The notes under the pieces: generated by a model
What the model saw: only the letters and a program-made list of their open reading frames with translations
Databases searched by the model: none
Told to the model about the DNA's origin: nothing
Position numbers and translations under genes: made by a program
From: Syntrophus sp. PtaU1.Bin005
Lineage (GTDB): Bacteria > Desulfobacterota > Syntrophia > Syntrophales > Syntrophaceae
Assembly (NCBI GenBank): GCA_002067745.1
Contig: MVRU01000022.1
Span: forward strand, 1-37,230
DNA length: 37,230 bases
Direction of reading: 5' to 3'
In this document: positions 24,102 through 31,632 of the stretch, in pieces
How positions within the stretch are numbered: the stretch's first letter is position 1
Layout: the number at the start of each line of letters is the position of its first letter

Positions 24102-24806
24102 CTATTCTTCCTTGACATAGAACTGCATCTTCAGACCTGCCACTTCCACAAAATCTCCGTCCTTCAGGTCATAACGGGAGTTCATTTCCTGTCCATTGAT
24201 TTTCATCGATTTACCCCCGGAGGGATTGATGAAGTAGCCCTCTTTCCTCCGGTTGACCAGCGCGGCCACTTTGGGGGCGAAAAAGCCCCTGAGATGGATA
24301 CCCGCACCGTCTTCCTTTCCGATGGTCGTCACCCTCTCCTTCAGGAGATAATCCCTTCTGTCCGCGGATCCGTTCACGATCACGAAGCCCCCCAGGACGT
24401 CCGGCTTGTTTTTGCCCGTGGCGGCCAGAAGATTTTTCTGATCCTGCGGGGCGATCACCATGGTTTCATCCATGGATCTTCCCCTCAGGGTCGCGTTCCG
24501 GGGATCCATTTCCCTGTTCCGGTCGGAAATCACTTCCAGGGTGTGAATTCCGACCAGGACCATGTCGCCGTTGAAAATTTCGCTTTTGAAAACTTTCTGC
24601 CCGTTGACATATGTTCCATTGAGGCTGTTCGTATCCTCAATGAAGAGAGATTCCCCTTCATTCGTGAACTTTGCATGATGCCCGGAGACAGCCTGGTTGT
24701 CAATCACAATATCATTGTCCGGCTTTCTGCCGATGGTTATGACATCTTGCTCGAGGGGGATTTCCTTGACAACGGCTCCTTTGAATTTCAATAAAACCTC
24801 CGCCAT
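24102..24806 (-). CDS. Double FHA-domain protein
   Basis: The 234-residue protein has a canonical FHA domain at about 5-95 (ITIGRKPDNDIVID, SGHHAKF, NSLNGTYVNGQKV), whose Arg, Ser, His and Asn positions bind phosphothreonine peptides. A second FHA-like fold at about 140-230 (VTTIGKEDGAGIHLRGF, MKINGQEM) lacks the SxxH and NGT motifs and is probably non-binding or self-associating. The linker has a TMVIAP threonine that could be a kinase target, as in other FHA partners of Ser/Thr kinases. The gene follows the PP2C gene by 3 nt. Confidence 0.85.
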   Translation of the reverse strand: MAEVLLKFKGAVVKEIPLEQDVITIGRKPDNDIVIDNQAVSGHHAKFTNEGESLFIEDTNSLNGTYVNGQKVFKSEIFNGDMVLVGIHTLEVISDRNREMDPRNATLRGRSMDETMVIAPQDQKNLLAATGKNKPDVLGGFVIVNGSADRRDYLLKERVTTIGKEDGAGIHLRGFFAPKVAALVNRRKEGYFINPSGGKSMKINGQEMNSRYDLKDGDFVEVAGLKMQFYVKEE

Positions 24807-24809
24807 TCT

Positions 24810-25625
24810 TTACCTCCTGAACCATCTAAAAAATTTGAGAACCGACGCAAACCGGCGCTTCTTGGCAAGGTAACCCGTAACAACGGTGATATTGTCCTTC
24901 CCGCCCTTCTCGTTGGCCATCGTGATCAGCTTCTGGCACGCTACAGAAGGGTTGTCCAGGGATGCCGCCGTAAGCAGAATCTCTTGATCGGAAATCATCC
25001 CGGACAAACCGTCGCTGCAGAGAATCAGCACATCGCCCTCCGCCAGAGTCATCTCATCCAGATCGACATCCACAAAGGGTGCAATTCCCAGCGCCCTTGT
25101 CAGAACATGCCGAATCGTGGACTGTTCCGCTTCTTCTTTTGAGATCAGGTCATGCTTGACCTGCTCATATACCAGGGTATGATCGTCGGTCAACTGTTCA
25201 ATTTCTCCTGCCCTGACCAGGTAAATCCGACTGTCTCCCACATGGGCGATGCTCAGTTTTCTGCCCTGGATCATGATGGCCGCCAGGGTTGTTCCCATGC
25301 CATGCAGCTGAGGATTGCTCTTTGCCGCTTCATGAATGGCCTTGTTGGCCAGCTGAATGGCGGAGCAAAGCTGATTGGTCTCATCCGAATAGTTTTCATT
25401 GTAACAGGAGGCAATCAAGGGGGCTTTGCCTTCTCCGGACTGCTGGAAATAATTCCGCAGAACGTCCACAGCCATTTTACTGGCCACTTCTCCGGATGCG
25501 TGTCCTCCCATGCCATCCGCCACAGCCAGAATCCCCCGCTTGGGGTCCAGAAAAAAGTCATCTTCGTTGTTCGGTCGGATGAGCCCTTTATCGGTTTGGC
25601 CGGCAATATTCACTTTCAAGATCAT
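24810..25625 (-). CDS. PP2C-family Ser/Thr protein phosphatase
   Basis: The 271-residue protein contains the PP2C metal-binding motifs: RPNNEDDFF, VADGMGGHASGEVAS, GTTLAAIMI, HVGDSRIYL, LCSDGLSGMI and GKDNITVV. It has no membrane segment. It would reverse phosphorylation by the kinase encoded 3 nt upstream, a classic bacterial kinase/phosphatase pair. The start ATG 25625 is very close to the kinase stop codon. Confidence 0.92.
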   Translation of the reverse strand: MILKVNIAGQTDKGLIRPNNEDDFFLDPKRGILAVADGMGGHASGEVASKMAVDVLRNYFQQSGEGKAPLIASCYNENYSDETNQLCSAIQLANKAIHEAAKSNPQLHGMGTTLAAIMIQGRKLSIAHVGDSRIYLVRAGEIEQLTDDHTLVYEQVKHDLISKEEAEQSTIRHVLTRALGIAPFVDVDLDEMTLAEGDVLILCSDGLSGMISDQEILLTAASLDNPSVACQKLITMANEKGGKDNITVVTGYLAKKRRFASVLKFFRWFRR

Positions 25626-25628
25626 CTC

Positions 25629-28085
25629 CTAAATGTTGGCATAAACGGCGAGGTCAGAGACGAATTCGCCGCCATTCTGGTAGCGCTTCTCCAGGTCCTT
25701 CTCGATGGCTTTGTCCACGATGTCCGCAAAGAGCTCCGGCAGGTGAGGAGCCCGCTCCCTGAGAGGCTTGGGAGCCGTTGAAGTGATTTTGTACATGAGG
25801 GTCCCGATGCTGTCTCCCTGGAATGGCTTTTCCCCGGTCAGCATTTCATAAAAAACGACGCCCAGAGAAAAAAGGTCCGAACGGCCGTCGATCTTCTGGC
25901 CCGAAATCTGTTCCGGCGACATGTAGCTCGGCGTCCCAAGGACGGCGCCCGTCTGGGTCTTCGAAGAGCTCATGACGCGGGCGATTCCGAAATCGGCGAC
26001 CCGGATCTCGCCATTATTAAGGATCATGATGTTCGAAGGTTTGATGTCCCTGTGCACAACCCCGTTTCGGTGGGCATAGTCCAAAGCGCCGGCCACGAGG
26101 CCTACGATCCGGACGACTTCCGGGATCGGCAGGAGGCTTTCCCGGCTGCAGTATCTGACAAGGTCCGTTCCGTCCAGCAGCTCCATGGCCATGTAGGCGA
26201 GATCGGAATCCTCCCCCACGTCATAGATGGTCACAATGTTGGGATGGGATAGCTTTCCCGCGGCTTCCGCCTCCAGGAAAAACCGCTTCTTGGTTTCCAG
26301 GAGCCTCTCTTCCTCAATCTCTTCATAGCGCAGTGTCTTGATCGCCACTTCCCTGTTTATCTTCGGATCCTTGCCCAGGTAAACCGTCCCCATGGCTCCG
26401 CGTCCAAGCTCCCGGCTGATCTCGTAGCGTCCAATCGTCGGCTTGATTTCGGTTTCCTGCAGAATGACTGTATCATCCTTTCTGCTCCCGGCGGGCTGAT
26501 GGTTGATGGTATCGCCCGCCAGTTTGATCCTCTGGATCCGGTCATTGATGTCCTTGAAGCTGCCGGCCTGGGCAATGTGGTTGTAAACGGCGGAAGCCTT
26601 TGAGAAAAGCCGCTTTCGTTCGAAGTCGAGTCCGAGATTGTACAGGAGCTCTTTCGTGGCTTTGTCCTCAACAGGGCACTTCCGGAATGTATCAAAGGCC
26701 ATGTCCAGCATTCCCTGGCCCTGAAAGGAAAGCCCGAGCATTTTGCTGGCTTCCACGCTGTCCGCCTCGATGCTCTCCCGTGGGCTTTCGGAAAGGAGAT
26801 AGTTCCGGGAGGCCGTAACGAGATATCCGAGAATCAGGACCAACGCGGGATGGACGGGTTTTATCCAACAGCCGTGGCCGGCGAGGAGATAAACGGCCGA
26901 CCCGCACCAGAGGGCCAGCATGGCCAGCATGGCGGCGGCGCTGTACAGGAAGTTCAGCCTGGAGGTGATCAGGATGACCAGGCATCCGAACAGGACCATG
27001 CTTCCCAGTTCGAGCCAGATGGCCCATGAAGGCCGCGTGATGTGCTTCTGGTAGAGAATGTTGTTCACCGTGCTGGCGGTCCCGAGCCAGGACGGGGTGT
27101 CGGGCCCGATGGGGGTGGCCTGAAAAGATCCCAGGCCGGTGGCGTTGAGGACAAGAATCGCAATCCTGTTTTTAAAGACATCGGGCCGGACTTTGTGGTT
27201 GATGACATCCACAAAGGAATAAACAGGGACATCCCCGCCGTAATGGATCAGCATCTGATGCCTGTCAAAGGTGGGAATGCGGGCGCTGCCGATTTCCAAC
27301 CCGTTTTCCAGGCGGATGTGCTCCAGGTTGTATTTGAGGAACTTCAGGGTCAGCTGCAGGGCGAAGGAGGGGTAATAGCGATTTTCATAATGGATGAGCA
27401 GCGGTTCGCTGCGCACGGCGCCGTCCTTGTCGGGCTCCACGTTGGTGTGCCCCAGTGCCAGGGCCGGTTCCGCGAAGGCAGAAAGGGGCGAAATCAGTTC
27501 CCTGGCGGTCAGGCTCGGGGCCGTCGTGCTGAGCTTCACCGAATTCCGCATCAAATAATCGGGCAGGGCCTCCACCGCCGCGAGGGAGCCCCCCAGGACA
27601 AAGGACAGGGGGAGAACGACCTGGTTGCTCTCAGCGATGGCTGCCGCTAGTATGGTGTCTTGATCCAGCCGCTCTTCCGCTTCTTTCAGGCTTGTGTAAA
27701 GCTGTCCGTTGCGGACGCCCTTTGATTCCAACCCGTTGAGAAGATTGCGAATCTCCTCAAGTCCCTGGCCTTGGTCCTTTTCGGAAAGGGGAATGGCAAC
27801 CCCGATGACCCTGGTTCCGTAAGCTTTCAGTGTGCTGATCATCTGGGCGAGGTGTCCCCTGGACCAGGGCCAGCGGCCGATGGCGGCAATGCTGTTGTTG
27901 TCGATCCCGATGATGACGACATTGGATGCCGGGGTCTTATCCTTCAAGGCGGAAATGGCATCATAGGCCTTGTATTCAAGTCGTTCCGTGGGGGTCCAAC
28001 GCAGGATGCAGGCACCGGCCAGCAGAATGACAAGGAAAACAACGATGACCACATCTGCAGCGATCGAATTTTTAAGCCGGATCAT
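25629..28085 (-). CDS. CHASE2-domain transmembrane Ser/Thr protein kinase
   Basis: The protein has 818 residues from the ATG at 28085, which follows CAGGAGGAATT; an upstream in-frame extension to 28277 is unlike the family. A membrane anchor at about 10-30, a periplasmic CHASE2 sensor (about 35-330) and three membrane segments (about 345-430) come first. A helical linker follows, then a Hanks-type kinase at about 551-818 with GRGAMGTVYLG, Lys583, HRDIKPSN (Asp680) and DFGIAR (Asp698). The activation segment ends GTPSYMSPEQ. All catalytic residues are present. CHASE2 senses an unknown extracytoplasmic signal. It heads a tight kinase-phosphatase-FHA operon. Confidence 0.92.
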   Translation of the reverse strand: MIRLKNSIAADVVIVVFLVILLAGACILRWTPTERLEYKAYDAISALKDKTPASNVVIIGIDNNSIAAIGRWPWSRGHLAQMISTLKAYGTRVIGVAIPLSEKDQGQGLEEIRNLLNGLESKGVRNGQLYTSLKEAEERLDQDTILAAAIAESNQVVLPLSFVLGGSLAAVEALPDYLMRNSVKLSTTAPSLTARELISPLSAFAEPALALGHTNVEPDKDGAVRSEPLLIHYENRYYPSFALQLTLKFLKYNLEHIRLENGLEIGSARIPTFDRHQMLIHYGGDVPVYSFVDVINHKVRPDVFKNRIAILVLNATGLGSFQATPIGPDTPSWLGTASTVNNILYQKHITRPSWAIWLELGSMVLFGCLVILITSRLNFLYSAAAMLAMLALWCGSAVYLLAGHGCWIKPVHPALVLILGYLVTASRNYLLSESPRESIEADSVEASKMLGLSFQGQGMLDMAFDTFRKCPVEDKATKELLYNLGLDFERKRLFSKASAVYNHIAQAGSFKDINDRIQRIKLAGDTINHQPAGSRKDDTVILQETEIKPTIGRYEISRELGRGAMGTVYLGKDPKINREVAIKTLRYEEIEEERLLETKKRFFLEAEAAGKLSHPNIVTIYDVGEDSDLAYMAMELLDGTDLVRYCSRESLLPIPEVVRIVGLVAGALDYAHRNGVVHRDIKPSNIMILNNGEIRVADFGIARVMSSSKTQTGAVLGTPSYMSPEQISGQKIDGRSDLFSLGVVFYEMLTGEKPFQGDSIGTLMYKITSTAPKPLRERAPHLPELFADIVDKAIEKDLEKRYQNGGEFVSDLAVYANI

Positions 28086-28424
28086 AATTCCTCCTGGTTC
28101 TTGTCCCACCCGCTTCGTAGTAAAGGGAGCGTCTCCGGTGATGGAAATTCCAACAGAAGCGTCAAAATATGATGTTTCATGAGAGGGACGAGGCGTTCGG
28201 CATTTTCCTGCGGATGTTCTTCCCTTCAGGTGCTGTTCTATGCAAAATGTGACCCCAGATATGAGCAGAGGCCCCATAAATTTTTTTGTGCCGATCCATC
28301 CTGGTTCTTTTATGATCCATCCATGGGATGCGGATTGCGGCAGAAGGCATAAAAAGGGGTGGAAAGCGGGTGCCCGTGCAATTCGGCGGGCCCCCGATCA
28401 GGGGATTCAGAGGGCGGAGTTTGT
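28086..28424. other. Intergenic gap between the two kinase genes
   Basis: No supported gene is present in these 339 nt. Small frames on both strands lack ribosome sites and family similarity. The promoter of the CHASE2 kinase operon is probably here, but I cannot pick it with confidence. Confidence 0.4.
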
Positions 28425-30239
28425 TCAATGGATCAGGACATTGAGATCGTCGATGATGGACTGATAGTCCTGATACCGGTCCTCCGGCTTCTTGGCCATC
28501 ATCTTCCCTATGATATCCGATAGATCGCTTGACAGGATGGGGTTTCTCTTCTTCAGGGGAACCAGCTCCTCATGGAGGTGCTTGAACAGGATCGCTTCGA
28601 CGTAGTCGCCTTCAAAGGGGGGAACGCCTGCAAAAACGTTGTAAAACGTGGCGCCCAGGGAATAGATGTCACTTCGGCAGTCCAGCGGCTGGCCCATAAT
28701 GGAGTCCGGAGAGGCGAAAAGGGGTGAGCCGACCAGGCCCTCGGCCTTCTTTTTTCTGCCGGTTCCGTCATTGACGATGGCGACTCCGAAGTCCACGACC
28801 TTCAAGATGCCCTGGTCGTCAATCATGATGTTGGCGGGCTTGATGTCCCGGTGGACGATGTTCTGCCGGCTGACGAAATCCAGCGTCCGGCAGATGGTGA
28901 TGAAGTGTTCCAGCCCTTTGGCGGTGTTGAGATTATTGCGGTCCTTGATGATGTCTGCCAGGGTCCCCCCATTGATCAGCTCCATGGCGAAGTAGAGGAC
29001 ATCCTCGACCTGGTCGATGTAGTAGATCTGTGCGATGTTGGGATGGGTAAAACGGGAGACGAGGCGCGCCTCCTTGACAAACATGTCTCTGTAGGACGCG
29101 ATGGAGGAGAGATTGTAGGAGATGACCTTGAGGGCCACGTTCCGTTCAAGGACAACATCCCATCCCTTAAAAACACCCCCCATGCCTCCGGCGCCGATAA
29201 AAGACACCGCCTTGTAGTTTCCCAGTTTCTTTCCCACCAGGCTGCGATAAAACTTGATTTCCAGCGCCTTTTCGCTTCTGGGCTCGCTGGAATGGTTCAA
29301 TAGCGGATCGGCAGGCGCCTTCCTGTTGTCCGCCATACGGATGATCATGTCGGCGTGAATTTTTTTCTGGATGGGCCTGTCCACCTCTGCAGATGGCTTT
29401 TTGACTGCGGACTTTTTCCCCTCCTCCTTCAGATTGACGACGTAATCGTATGTTTCGATCCAGTCGATAGACTGCTCCGTTTCCACCCCTATTTCCGCCG
29501 ACAGCTTGTGGTTGTTGATGGAAATGTGCCGGATGTGGCTCTCGACGACGCATGTCCCGCAAGGCAGGGAGAACCGGATGTAAAGGGCCATGCCGAGCCG
29601 CCCGAGCAGGGAGGTTTCTATCAGCAGGCCCTGCCTGCTGATGTTTTTTATTCGTCCCGGAAGCCAGAGAATGGAATCGCGGGATAGTTCGATGTTCACC
29701 GTCTGTTTGGGGACCAGCCTTTCGCTTTTCCGGCACTCGGCCGGCGGCGGCGAAGAAGCGGCCTCCGGGGGCGGGGCAATGGATTGGTGAAACCCTTCGC
29801 CGGGCAATGCGGATATTCCCGCCCTGCCGGTCTTGGCGGGCAGTGTTTCAGCGATGCGTTTCATCAGGACGTTCGGGGCCCCGCTGTCCGGCGTATAGAC
29901 GATGAAATCGGCGGCCCCCATGCCGAAAGCCTTCCCGGCGTTCCCTTGATCGTGGACGGGCACGAAAAAGACAAAGGGAATTTTCTTCAAGAGGGGAGTG
30001 TGCTTGATAAACTCCAGGAATTCATAGCCGCTGGAATCCTCCAGTTCGCTGTCGCAGATGATGAGCGCTACGGAATTGTTGGAGAGCAGATTCAGGGCGC
30101 TGCTCATGGCGGTGGCGGTAAGCACCGGGTATCCGGCCCCGAGGAGAGATTTGCAGACCACGTTCAGAAATTTCTTGTCGCGGTTGACTAACAGAATGTA
30201 GCTTCTAAGGTCCATAGATCTCGACATGAAGATATCCAT
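28425..30239 (-). CDS. Receiver-PilZ-Ser/Thr kinase fusion protein
   Basis: The 604-residue protein joins three modules. Residues about 12-130 are a receiver-like domain with IICDSELED (Asp63), but it lacks the usual acidic pair and the Lys-Pro pair (TP instead), so it is degenerate. Residues about 170-265 are PilZ-like, with RKSER, NISRQG and a following barrel; these match the RxxxR and DxSxxG c-di-GMP contacts, with Asn for Asp. Residues 339-604 are a Hanks kinase with GAGGMGGVF, Lys371, HRDIKPAN (Asp465) and DFG (Asp483). No membrane segment is seen, so it is cytosolic. In-frame ATGs at 30227 and 30215 are alternative starts. It should couple c-di-GMP or partner signals to phosphorylation; this is inference. 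Confidence 0.8.
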   Translation of the reverse strand: MDIFMSRSMDLRSYILLVNRDKKFLNVVCKSLLGAGYPVLTATAMSSALNLLSNNSVALIICDSELEDSSGYEFLEFIKHTPLLKKIPFVFFVPVHDQGNAGKAFGMGAADFIVYTPDSGAPNVLMKRIAETLPAKTGRAGISALPGEGFHQSIAPPPEAASSPPPAECRKSERLVPKQTVNIELSRDSILWLPGRIKNISRQGLLIETSLLGRLGMALYIRFSLPCGTCVVESHIRHISINNHKLSAEIGVETEQSIDWIETYDYVVNLKEEGKKSAVKKPSAEVDRPIQKKIHADMIIRMADNRKAPADPLLNHSSEPRSEKALEIKFYRSLVGKKLGNYKAVSFIGAGGMGGVFKGWDVVLERNVALKVISYNLSSIASYRDMFVKEARLVSRFTHPNIAQIYYIDQVEDVLYFAMELINGGTLADIIKDRNNLNTAKGLEHFITICRTLDFVSRQNIVHRDIKPANIMIDDQGILKVVDFGVAIVNDGTGRKKKAEGLVGSPLFASPDSIMGQPLDCRSDIYSLGATFYNVFAGVPPFEGDYVEAILFKHLHEELVPLKKRNPILSSDLSDIIGKMMAKKPEDRYQDYQSIIDDLNVLIH

Positions 30240-30294: not shown

Positions 30295-31140
30295 TCAGGA
30301 CAGGGTCGTTTTCGGTTTGATGCAGACATGCAGGGCAAAGGACTGTGTCCCGACCTGGAAGATCAGCACGGCGACGGAGGTGTTCTGCAGATAGCCGATC
30401 TGGTGGCCGGGGCCGACGACGACCGAGGGAAGCGATATTTCGAAATGGTACGGTGTTCCCACAAATTCCTTTTTCGTGGAGCCGCTGATCATGTTTATGA
30501 TTTCGCTGACTCCGTCATGGATCAATTCCGCATCGATTTCCCCCTCTTCCATTCCCATCATCTTCGCGACGATCGCTTTTGCCAGATCCCAGTAGAACGT
30601 GACCACGAGCGTTCCCTCGGCATTGCCGGAAAGCCCCATGATGCCGGAAACGTCACCGAAGATTCTGATGGTATTGGAGAAGTAGACTTTCTTGAACTCC
30701 ACATGGATGGAGGCCATGGTCTGCAGGATATGGCAGGTATTTTTGATGAAGGGGTCCAGGTATTCGAATTCCTCTTCGAGGGGCTCCCTGCCGGGGATCA
30801 GGTATCCGTTCATGATGTGCCTGCAGGCGGGCAGGGGATCGGACAGGGACAGGACTTCCGTTGCTCCGGCGATGATGTAGGGTTGCGACGGGATGTCTTT
30901 TTTCCGCGCGTTGATGAGAATGATGGGAATATTCTGAAAATTGCATGCATACCGAAGCTTGCAGATCTGCTGCACAACGTGTTCCTGGTTTCTGCCCATT
31001 TCCAGAATGATCATCTGATAGCCGTTGAGGGCGATCCCGTCATGAAATTGTTCATATTGAACATCGTCGTTTCCCCCGAACAGCCCGGAAACAACTTTTT
31101 CGACCTTTGGACTGCAGTCAATTCCAAGTATTCTCTTCAT
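30295..31140 (-). CDS. Pseudo-receiver-CheX phosphatase
   Basis: The 281-residue protein counted from ATG 31140 (SD GGAG; an ATG at 31155 is the alternative) has an N-terminal receiver-like domain in which the phospho-acceptor Asp is replaced by Glu47 (MIILEMG). The C-terminal half from about 125 is CheX/CheC-like, with the signature SEIINMISG that carries the ExxN catalytic pair used to dephosphorylate CheY-P. It lies between CheY and the receiver-PilZ-kinase gene, so either could be its substrate. Cytosolic. Confidence 0.78.
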   Translation of the reverse strand: MKRILGIDCSPKVEKVVSGLFGGNDDVQYEQFHDGIALNGYQMIILEMGRNQEHVVQQICKLRYACNFQNIPIILINARKKDIPSQPYIIAGATEVLSLSDPLPACRHIMNGYLIPGREPLEEEFEYLDPFIKNTCHILQTMASIHVEFKKVYFSNTIRIFGDVSGIMGLSGNAEGTLVVTFYWDLAKAIVAKMMGMEEGEIDAELIHDGVSEIINMISGSTKKEFVGTPYHFEISLPSVVVGPGHQIGYLQNTSVAVLIFQVGTQSFALHVCIKPKTTLS

Positions 31141-31260
31141 AGAATCCATCTCCATTTTCTGTTTCTGGTAAATTAGCCGGACCGCCTGATGGATTTCCGG
31201 GAGCTGTGACCCGGCCCGTCATGCCATGGCGCTTCTGAACAGATTCTGTGTTCAGGGGAG

Positions 31261-31632
31261 TCAGTGTTTTTCCAGCACCTGATGAATGGCATCGGTCAGC
31301 TGATCCGCGGTAAAGGGCTTGGTGAGATAACCCTGGGCGCCGGCGCGGATCGCTTCCTGTATCCGGTCTTCTTCAGATTCCGTCGATATCATCAAGACGG
31401 GAATCTTTTTGAAGCGATCGTCGCCGCGCATTTTTCTGATGACGTCGATGCCGCTCACAAGAGGCATGTTCCAGTCCAGGAGAACCAGATTGATCTCGCC
31501 GCCGCTTGCTTCCAGAAGGCTCAGCGCCTCCCTGCCGTTGCCGGCCTGCACGGCTTCGAAACCAATCGATGCGGCTGTCTTTTCGATAATGCCGCGTATT
31601 AAACGTGAATCATCTGCAACAATCGCTTTCAT
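31261..31632 (-). CDS. CheY-like single-domain response regulator
   Basis: The 123-residue protein is a complete receiver with the acidic pair Asp7/Asp8, phospho-acceptor Asp53 (LLDWNMP), Thr84 and Lys105 (TKPF). It has no output domain, as in CheY. The start ATG 31632 has a GGGGGAAGAGG purine-rich site upstream. The next gene downstream encodes a CheX-type phosphatase, so a CheY/CheX pair is likely. No chemotaxis kinase CheA is in the window, and the signal could instead feed the neighbouring kinases. Confidence 0.9.
   Translation of the reverse strand: MKAIVADDSRLIRGIIEKTAASIGFEAVQAGNGREALSLLEASGGEINLVLLDWNMPLVSGIDVIRKMRGDDRFKKIPVLMISTESEEDRIQEAIRAGAQGYLTKPFTADQLTDAIHQVLEKH

Follow-up and report, generated by a model that had tools for sequence, protein, structure and literature searches.

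The open reading frame at positions 28425..30239 (minus strand) of a 37,230-nucleotide stretch of Syntrophus sp. PtaU1.Bin005 DNA (hereafter the window) was predicted to encode a degenerate receiver, a PilZ domain and an intact Hanks-type kinase in one chain, and it raises the question of whether c-di-GMP could control a Ser/Thr kinase within a single protein. Analysis of the whole 604-aa protein, read from its ATG, revealed Pfam matches to Response_reg (residues 15-114), PilZ (170-254) and Pkinase (342-590), each above its curated cut-off, which bore out the three-domain architecture. A search for this architecture, as the original prediction had suggested, covered relatives, a phylum sample and two further orders and yielded 17 orthologous loci with the same domain arrangement, all in Desulfobacterota-type genomes. 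Of 155 genomes belonging to the same order as the window, 8 had a kinase orthologue, as had 7 of 85 and 2 of 3 genomes of the two further orders; the six found in the 395-genome phylum sample were all among the 17 loci. Named carriers include Syntrophus sp. PtaB.Bin001. No relatives were found in the viral contigs searched. Comparison with the orthologues placed the likely true start at M9 (coordinate 30215), where the orthologues begin, so the true residue numbers may be 8 lower than those given here. AlphaFold modeling of the full-length protein, with four sequences in the alignment, gave an unusable model (pLDDT 36). The architecture is not due to chance, since it is shared by 17 orthologues and the best Foldseek matches of the PilZ model described below were solved PilZ domains.

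The two domains that flank PilZ differed in the state of their functional residues. The receiver (residues 15-114, positions 29898..30197, minus strand) scored 37.0 bits against a Pfam cut-off of 30.2. All 16 aligned orthologues had N19-R20 at the position of the acidic pair, and none had the conserved Lys (replaced by Tyr in 15, the window protein included, and by Asp in one). Asp63 was kept in the window protein and most orthologues, the exceptions noted being Gly in L041 and Glu in L067; notwithstanding this residue, the domain does not have the combination of acidic pair, phosphoacceptor Asp, Thr/Ser and Lys that defines a phosphorylatable receiver. The predicted degeneracy was thus confirmed, and the receiver of the kinase is, as judged from its residues, a pseudoreceiver. 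Phosphorylation of this domain was considered and rejected because the acidic pair and Lys are missing. The kinase domain (residues 342-590, positions 28470..29216, minus strand) scored 153.2 bits against Pfam Pkinase and was intact as predicted, with the catalytic residues K371, E390, HRD (D465) and DFG (D483) kept in 10 of the 10 proteins checked. Its best match among solved kinases by phmmer was PknB (1e-47). The host encodes three Ser/Thr kinases only, and two of them lie within this window.

The PilZ domain (residues 170-254, positions 29478..29732, minus strand) was examined by profile and structural comparison. The match of the whole protein to Pfam PilZ (PF07238) was marginal (23.4 bits against a cut-off of 22.5); when the segment was scanned alone the score was 28.4 bits (E=2.2e-6), and 8 of 10 isolated orthologous segments also matched. 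No PDB sequence matched the PilZ profile at E<=1 in an hmmsearch. AlphaFold modeling of residues 164-270 from four sequences (mean pLDDT 77, pTM 0.67) predicted a barrel of six strands followed by a C-terminal helix. Foldseek comparison of this model with the PDB revealed PilZ domains as the best matches (E 1.9e-4, TMq 0.6-0.7), including BcsA, VCA0042 with c-di-GMP, MotI and YcgR, and several of the structural matches were solved with c-di-GMP. VIA comparison with PilZ structures gave Z scores up to 13.4, with 101 of 107 residues and an rmsd of 2.7-4.0. The PilZ fold on which the original prediction depended is therefore present in the AlphaFold model and its Foldseek and VIA matches.

Both motifs of a c-di-GMP-binding PilZ domain, RxxxR and (D/N)xSxxG, were found in the window protein, as R170-KSE-R174 and N199-IS-RQ-G204; their residue numbers agreed with the original prediction, and the c-di-GMP motif was conserved. 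When three further PilZ proteins encoded by the genome were aligned with it by hhalign, the motif fell in register, but the probability was only 13.6%, and the fold comparison was relied on instead. The host genome encodes 7 GGDEF and 7 PilZ domains, from which it follows that c-di-GMP signalling exists there. Binding of c-di-GMP by the PilZ domain of the window protein is likely.

Conservation of the motif was then compared across the orthologues. RxxxR was kept in 14 and NxSxxG in 10 of the 17; Gly204 was present in all 17 and Ser201 was missing from 7 (all counted by eye). L086 carried RxxxK instead of RxxxR, and L041 and L069 had lost both motifs while their kinase remained intact. These losses could mean that the PilZ domain is no longer a c-di-GMP receptor and that, together with the pseudoreceiver, it docks a constitutive kinase in a complex with CheY and CheX. 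The intact kinases of L041 and L069 and the frequent loss of Ser201 fit this explanation, as do the marginal Pfam score of the whole protein and the example of Pkn1, the PilZ domain of which has no motifs, yet which matters for development. However, within positions 137-185 (the linker and the first strand), an otherwise variable stretch with a mean conservation of 0.38, R170 and R174 were the most conserved residues (14 of 16 each, 0.875), and the window protein has the full motif. A tree of the orthologues built without the PilZ part placed the losses in L041 and L069 in separate clades, each of which also held motif-bearing relatives; L068 and L069 were firm sisters, and the position of L041 beside L040 was not firm within its clade. 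The losses look derived, and the tree fits their having occurred independently in at least two lineages. We consider a purely docking role for PilZ somewhat unlikely. The c-di-GMP site was probably ancestral, and the pattern suggests that selection has maintained it in most lineages, at least two having lost it. L041 and L069, with neither motif, and L086, with RxxxK, nevertheless count against a universal c-di-GMP switch, and the intact kinases of the two motif-less proteins indicate that c-di-GMP is not the sole reason for the kinase and is dispensable in some lineages. The kinase protein is real and conserved, and the case for a putative c-di-GMP input is sound. The orthologues also provide both candidate binders, in the majority that keep the motif, and natural negative controls, in the at least two lineages that have lost it.

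Analysis of the adjoining genes revealed a fixed block of three, the last of which is the kinase gene. Upstream of it on the same strand lie the genes for an intact, stand-alone CheY-like receiver (31261..31632, minus strand; Pfam 88.5 bits), the phosphorylation residues of which were conserved across the orthologous loci, and for a 286-aa pseudoreceiver-CheX protein (30295..31155, minus strand), with a CheX domain at residues 169-266 (Pfam 66 bits) and the ExxN motif within SEIINMI. The order and strand of the three genes were identical in 17 of 17 loci and contiguous in 16; in the remaining genome, G255, the block was split by a contig end, with 89 bases left beyond cheX on one contig and 30 bases ahead of the kinase start on another. 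The CheX protein (>=50% identity) was found in exactly the kinase-bearing genomes (6 of 100 relatives and 6 of 395 genomes of the phylum sample), and the ExxN motif that, within a CheX domain, marks a CheX phosphatase was present in all 17. The arrangement resembles the CheY/CheX phosphatase pair of chemotaxis in that a CheY-like receiver adjoins a CheX domain with ExxN; it differs from that pair in the fusion of CheX to a pseudoreceiver and in the kinase gene that always follows. Distant 'full-length' CheX matches (28-32%) were rejected as members of the module; the ones inspected turned out to be a cheY and a cheX gene joined only by reading through a stop. Five loci with distant relatives of the CheX protein (L117-L121) were cheY-cheX tandems, with an flhA-like gene next in L120 (by eye).

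The CheY-like receiver, the CheX protein and the kinase probably form a small signalling switch. The original prediction had joined three signalling systems in the one protein; the kinase and PilZ domains stood, whereas the His-Asp part was overstated because the receiver of the kinase has neither acidic pair nor Lys. The neighbouring CheX protein and intact receiver are the likelier route for the His-Asp link, and the fixed block offers concrete candidate partners linking His-Asp, c-di-GMP and Ser/Thr signalling.

Downstream of the kinase gene, a further set of signalling genes almost touch one another. These encode a CHASE2 Ser/Thr kinase (25629..28277, minus strand; Pfam CHASE2 and Pkinase, synteny in L080, L081 and L082), a PP2C phosphatase of the Stp1/IreP family (24810..25625, minus strand; NCBIfam NF033484 above cut-off, synteny) and an FHA-domain protein, a phospho-Thr reader (24102..24806, minus strand; Pfam FHA 84 bits, synteny). 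The 882-aa CHASE2 reading frame probably begins about 64 residues too early, the true start being nearer 28085. G002 has the same set downstream, and so do two distant genomes, G343 and G301, which have an extra kinase as well. The partners of the pseudoreceiver-PilZ kinase are probably the receiver and CheX proteins and, in this genome, also the FHA protein.

Beyond anatomy and conservation we infer a mechanism in which a three-gene CheY/CheX-type module has a c-di-GMP-responsive Hanks-type Ser/Thr kinase for its output arm; we give this explanation roughly even chances. c-di-GMP would bind PilZ through R170/R174 and N199/S201, and the linker that joins the pseudoreceiver to PilZ would fold onto the barrel. 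Since the RxxxR loop lies between these two domains, ligand binding should move the pseudoreceiver, which would act as a docking domain and not as a phosphoacceptor. The kinase, on its long flexible linker, would be brought to or released from its partners, the CheY-like receiver, CheX and the FHA protein, and would then phosphorylate them or a downstream target. The CheX protein would dephosphorylate the CheY-like receiver, so that one Ser/Thr kinase could receive both a His-Asp input and a c-di-GMP input. Resetting of the Ser/Thr marks may fall to the PP2C phosphatase in this genome, and their reading to the FHA protein. A point against this explanation is that no chemosensory kinase gene adjoins the block in most of the loci. 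It is possible, and we suggest this tentatively, that the CheY/CheX pair and c-di-GMP jointly gate the Hanks kinase through PilZ, which would make it the first c-di-GMP effector of this kinase class and the block an undescribed conserved module.

c-di-GMP might instead act directly on catalysis, through PilZ-kinase contacts or dimerisation and with no need for CheY/CheX. PilZ precedes the kinase in the chain, and c-di-GMP binding rearranges PilZ in YcgR/VCA0042-type proteins, to which the fold of the PilZ model matches; Caulobacter ShkA, a kinase freed by c-di-GMP acting on its pseudoreceiver, provides a precedent. However, the linker between PilZ and the kinase is long (about 50-70 aa), variable and poorly conserved across the orthologues, which makes rigid coupling or tight allostery less likely, and the fixed partnership with the receiver and CheX proteins also argues against this route. 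We regard it as improbable.

We also considered the flagellar or chemotaxis apparatus as the target of the kinase, which would then be a Ser/Thr brake parallel to the YcgR-type PilZ brakes. Being a statement about the target, this proposal can hold together with the output-arm mechanism. The surroundings of two loci are flagellar or chemosensory clusters: in G561 the block is preceded by a CheA fragment and by genes for MCP, CheR and CheB, and in G255 its neighbours are fliD, fliS, cheD, flagellin-type, cheB and cheA genes. A cluster of motB-cheY-cheX-cheA type was also recognised by eye in the host, and the distant CheX relatives described above are cheY-cheX tandems, followed by the flhA-like gene in at least one case. 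In most loci, the window included, no motility gene was identified near the block, and the block is sparse even among relatives; a motility brake therefore appears unlikely.

Comparison with known systems revealed partial precedents. The fusion of PilZ with a Ser/Thr kinase is not new in kind, since Myxococcus xanthus Pkn1 also combines a Hanks kinase and PilZ in one protein (PMC8316039, PMC8844925). In contrast with the window protein, Pkn1 has an N-terminal kinase, a C-terminal PilZ without c-di-GMP motifs and no receiver (PMC8316039, PMC8844925); its absent motif leaves open whether it is a c-di-GMP-regulated kinase, and the window protein, with the reversed order, the motif and an extra pseudoreceiver, is not of the Pkn1 type. 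M. xanthus PixA likewise joins a PilZ with binding residues to a receiver, but in the opposite order (PilZ-receiver), with an intact receiver and no kinase (PMC8316039). In Caulobacter ShkA, c-di-GMP likewise controls a kinase that carries a degenerate receiver, and does so by way of that pseudoreceiver; ShkA differs in being a hybrid histidine kinase in which c-di-GMP binds the pseudoreceiver itself and in having no PilZ (PMC7010744, PMC12632262). A kinase-TPR-GGDEF protein of Clostridium thermocellum, a kinase-GGDEF fusion noted in 2005, also ties a Ser/Thr kinase to c-di-GMP in one chain, but through a synthase domain and not a receptor (PMC1262709). In searches of the literature on PilZ with Ser/Thr kinases, and on CheX with kinases and PilZ, Pkn1 was the sole true PilZ-kinase fusion found. 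Within the open-access literature, which gives incomplete coverage, we found no description of the pseudoreceiver-PilZ-kinase order or of its CheY/CheX partnership, and no report of a Ser/Thr kinase regulated by c-di-GMP binding. The new elements are the domain order, the retained motif and the partnership with CheY/CheX.

Two minor observations were also made. A promoter scan identified 7 candidates compared with 4.2 expected, a difference that was not informative. Elsewhere in the same genome (L079, on contig C156), two small PilZ proteins have as their neighbour a frame of 285 aa that contains four nearly identical SPARAGFPLPMKE repeats.
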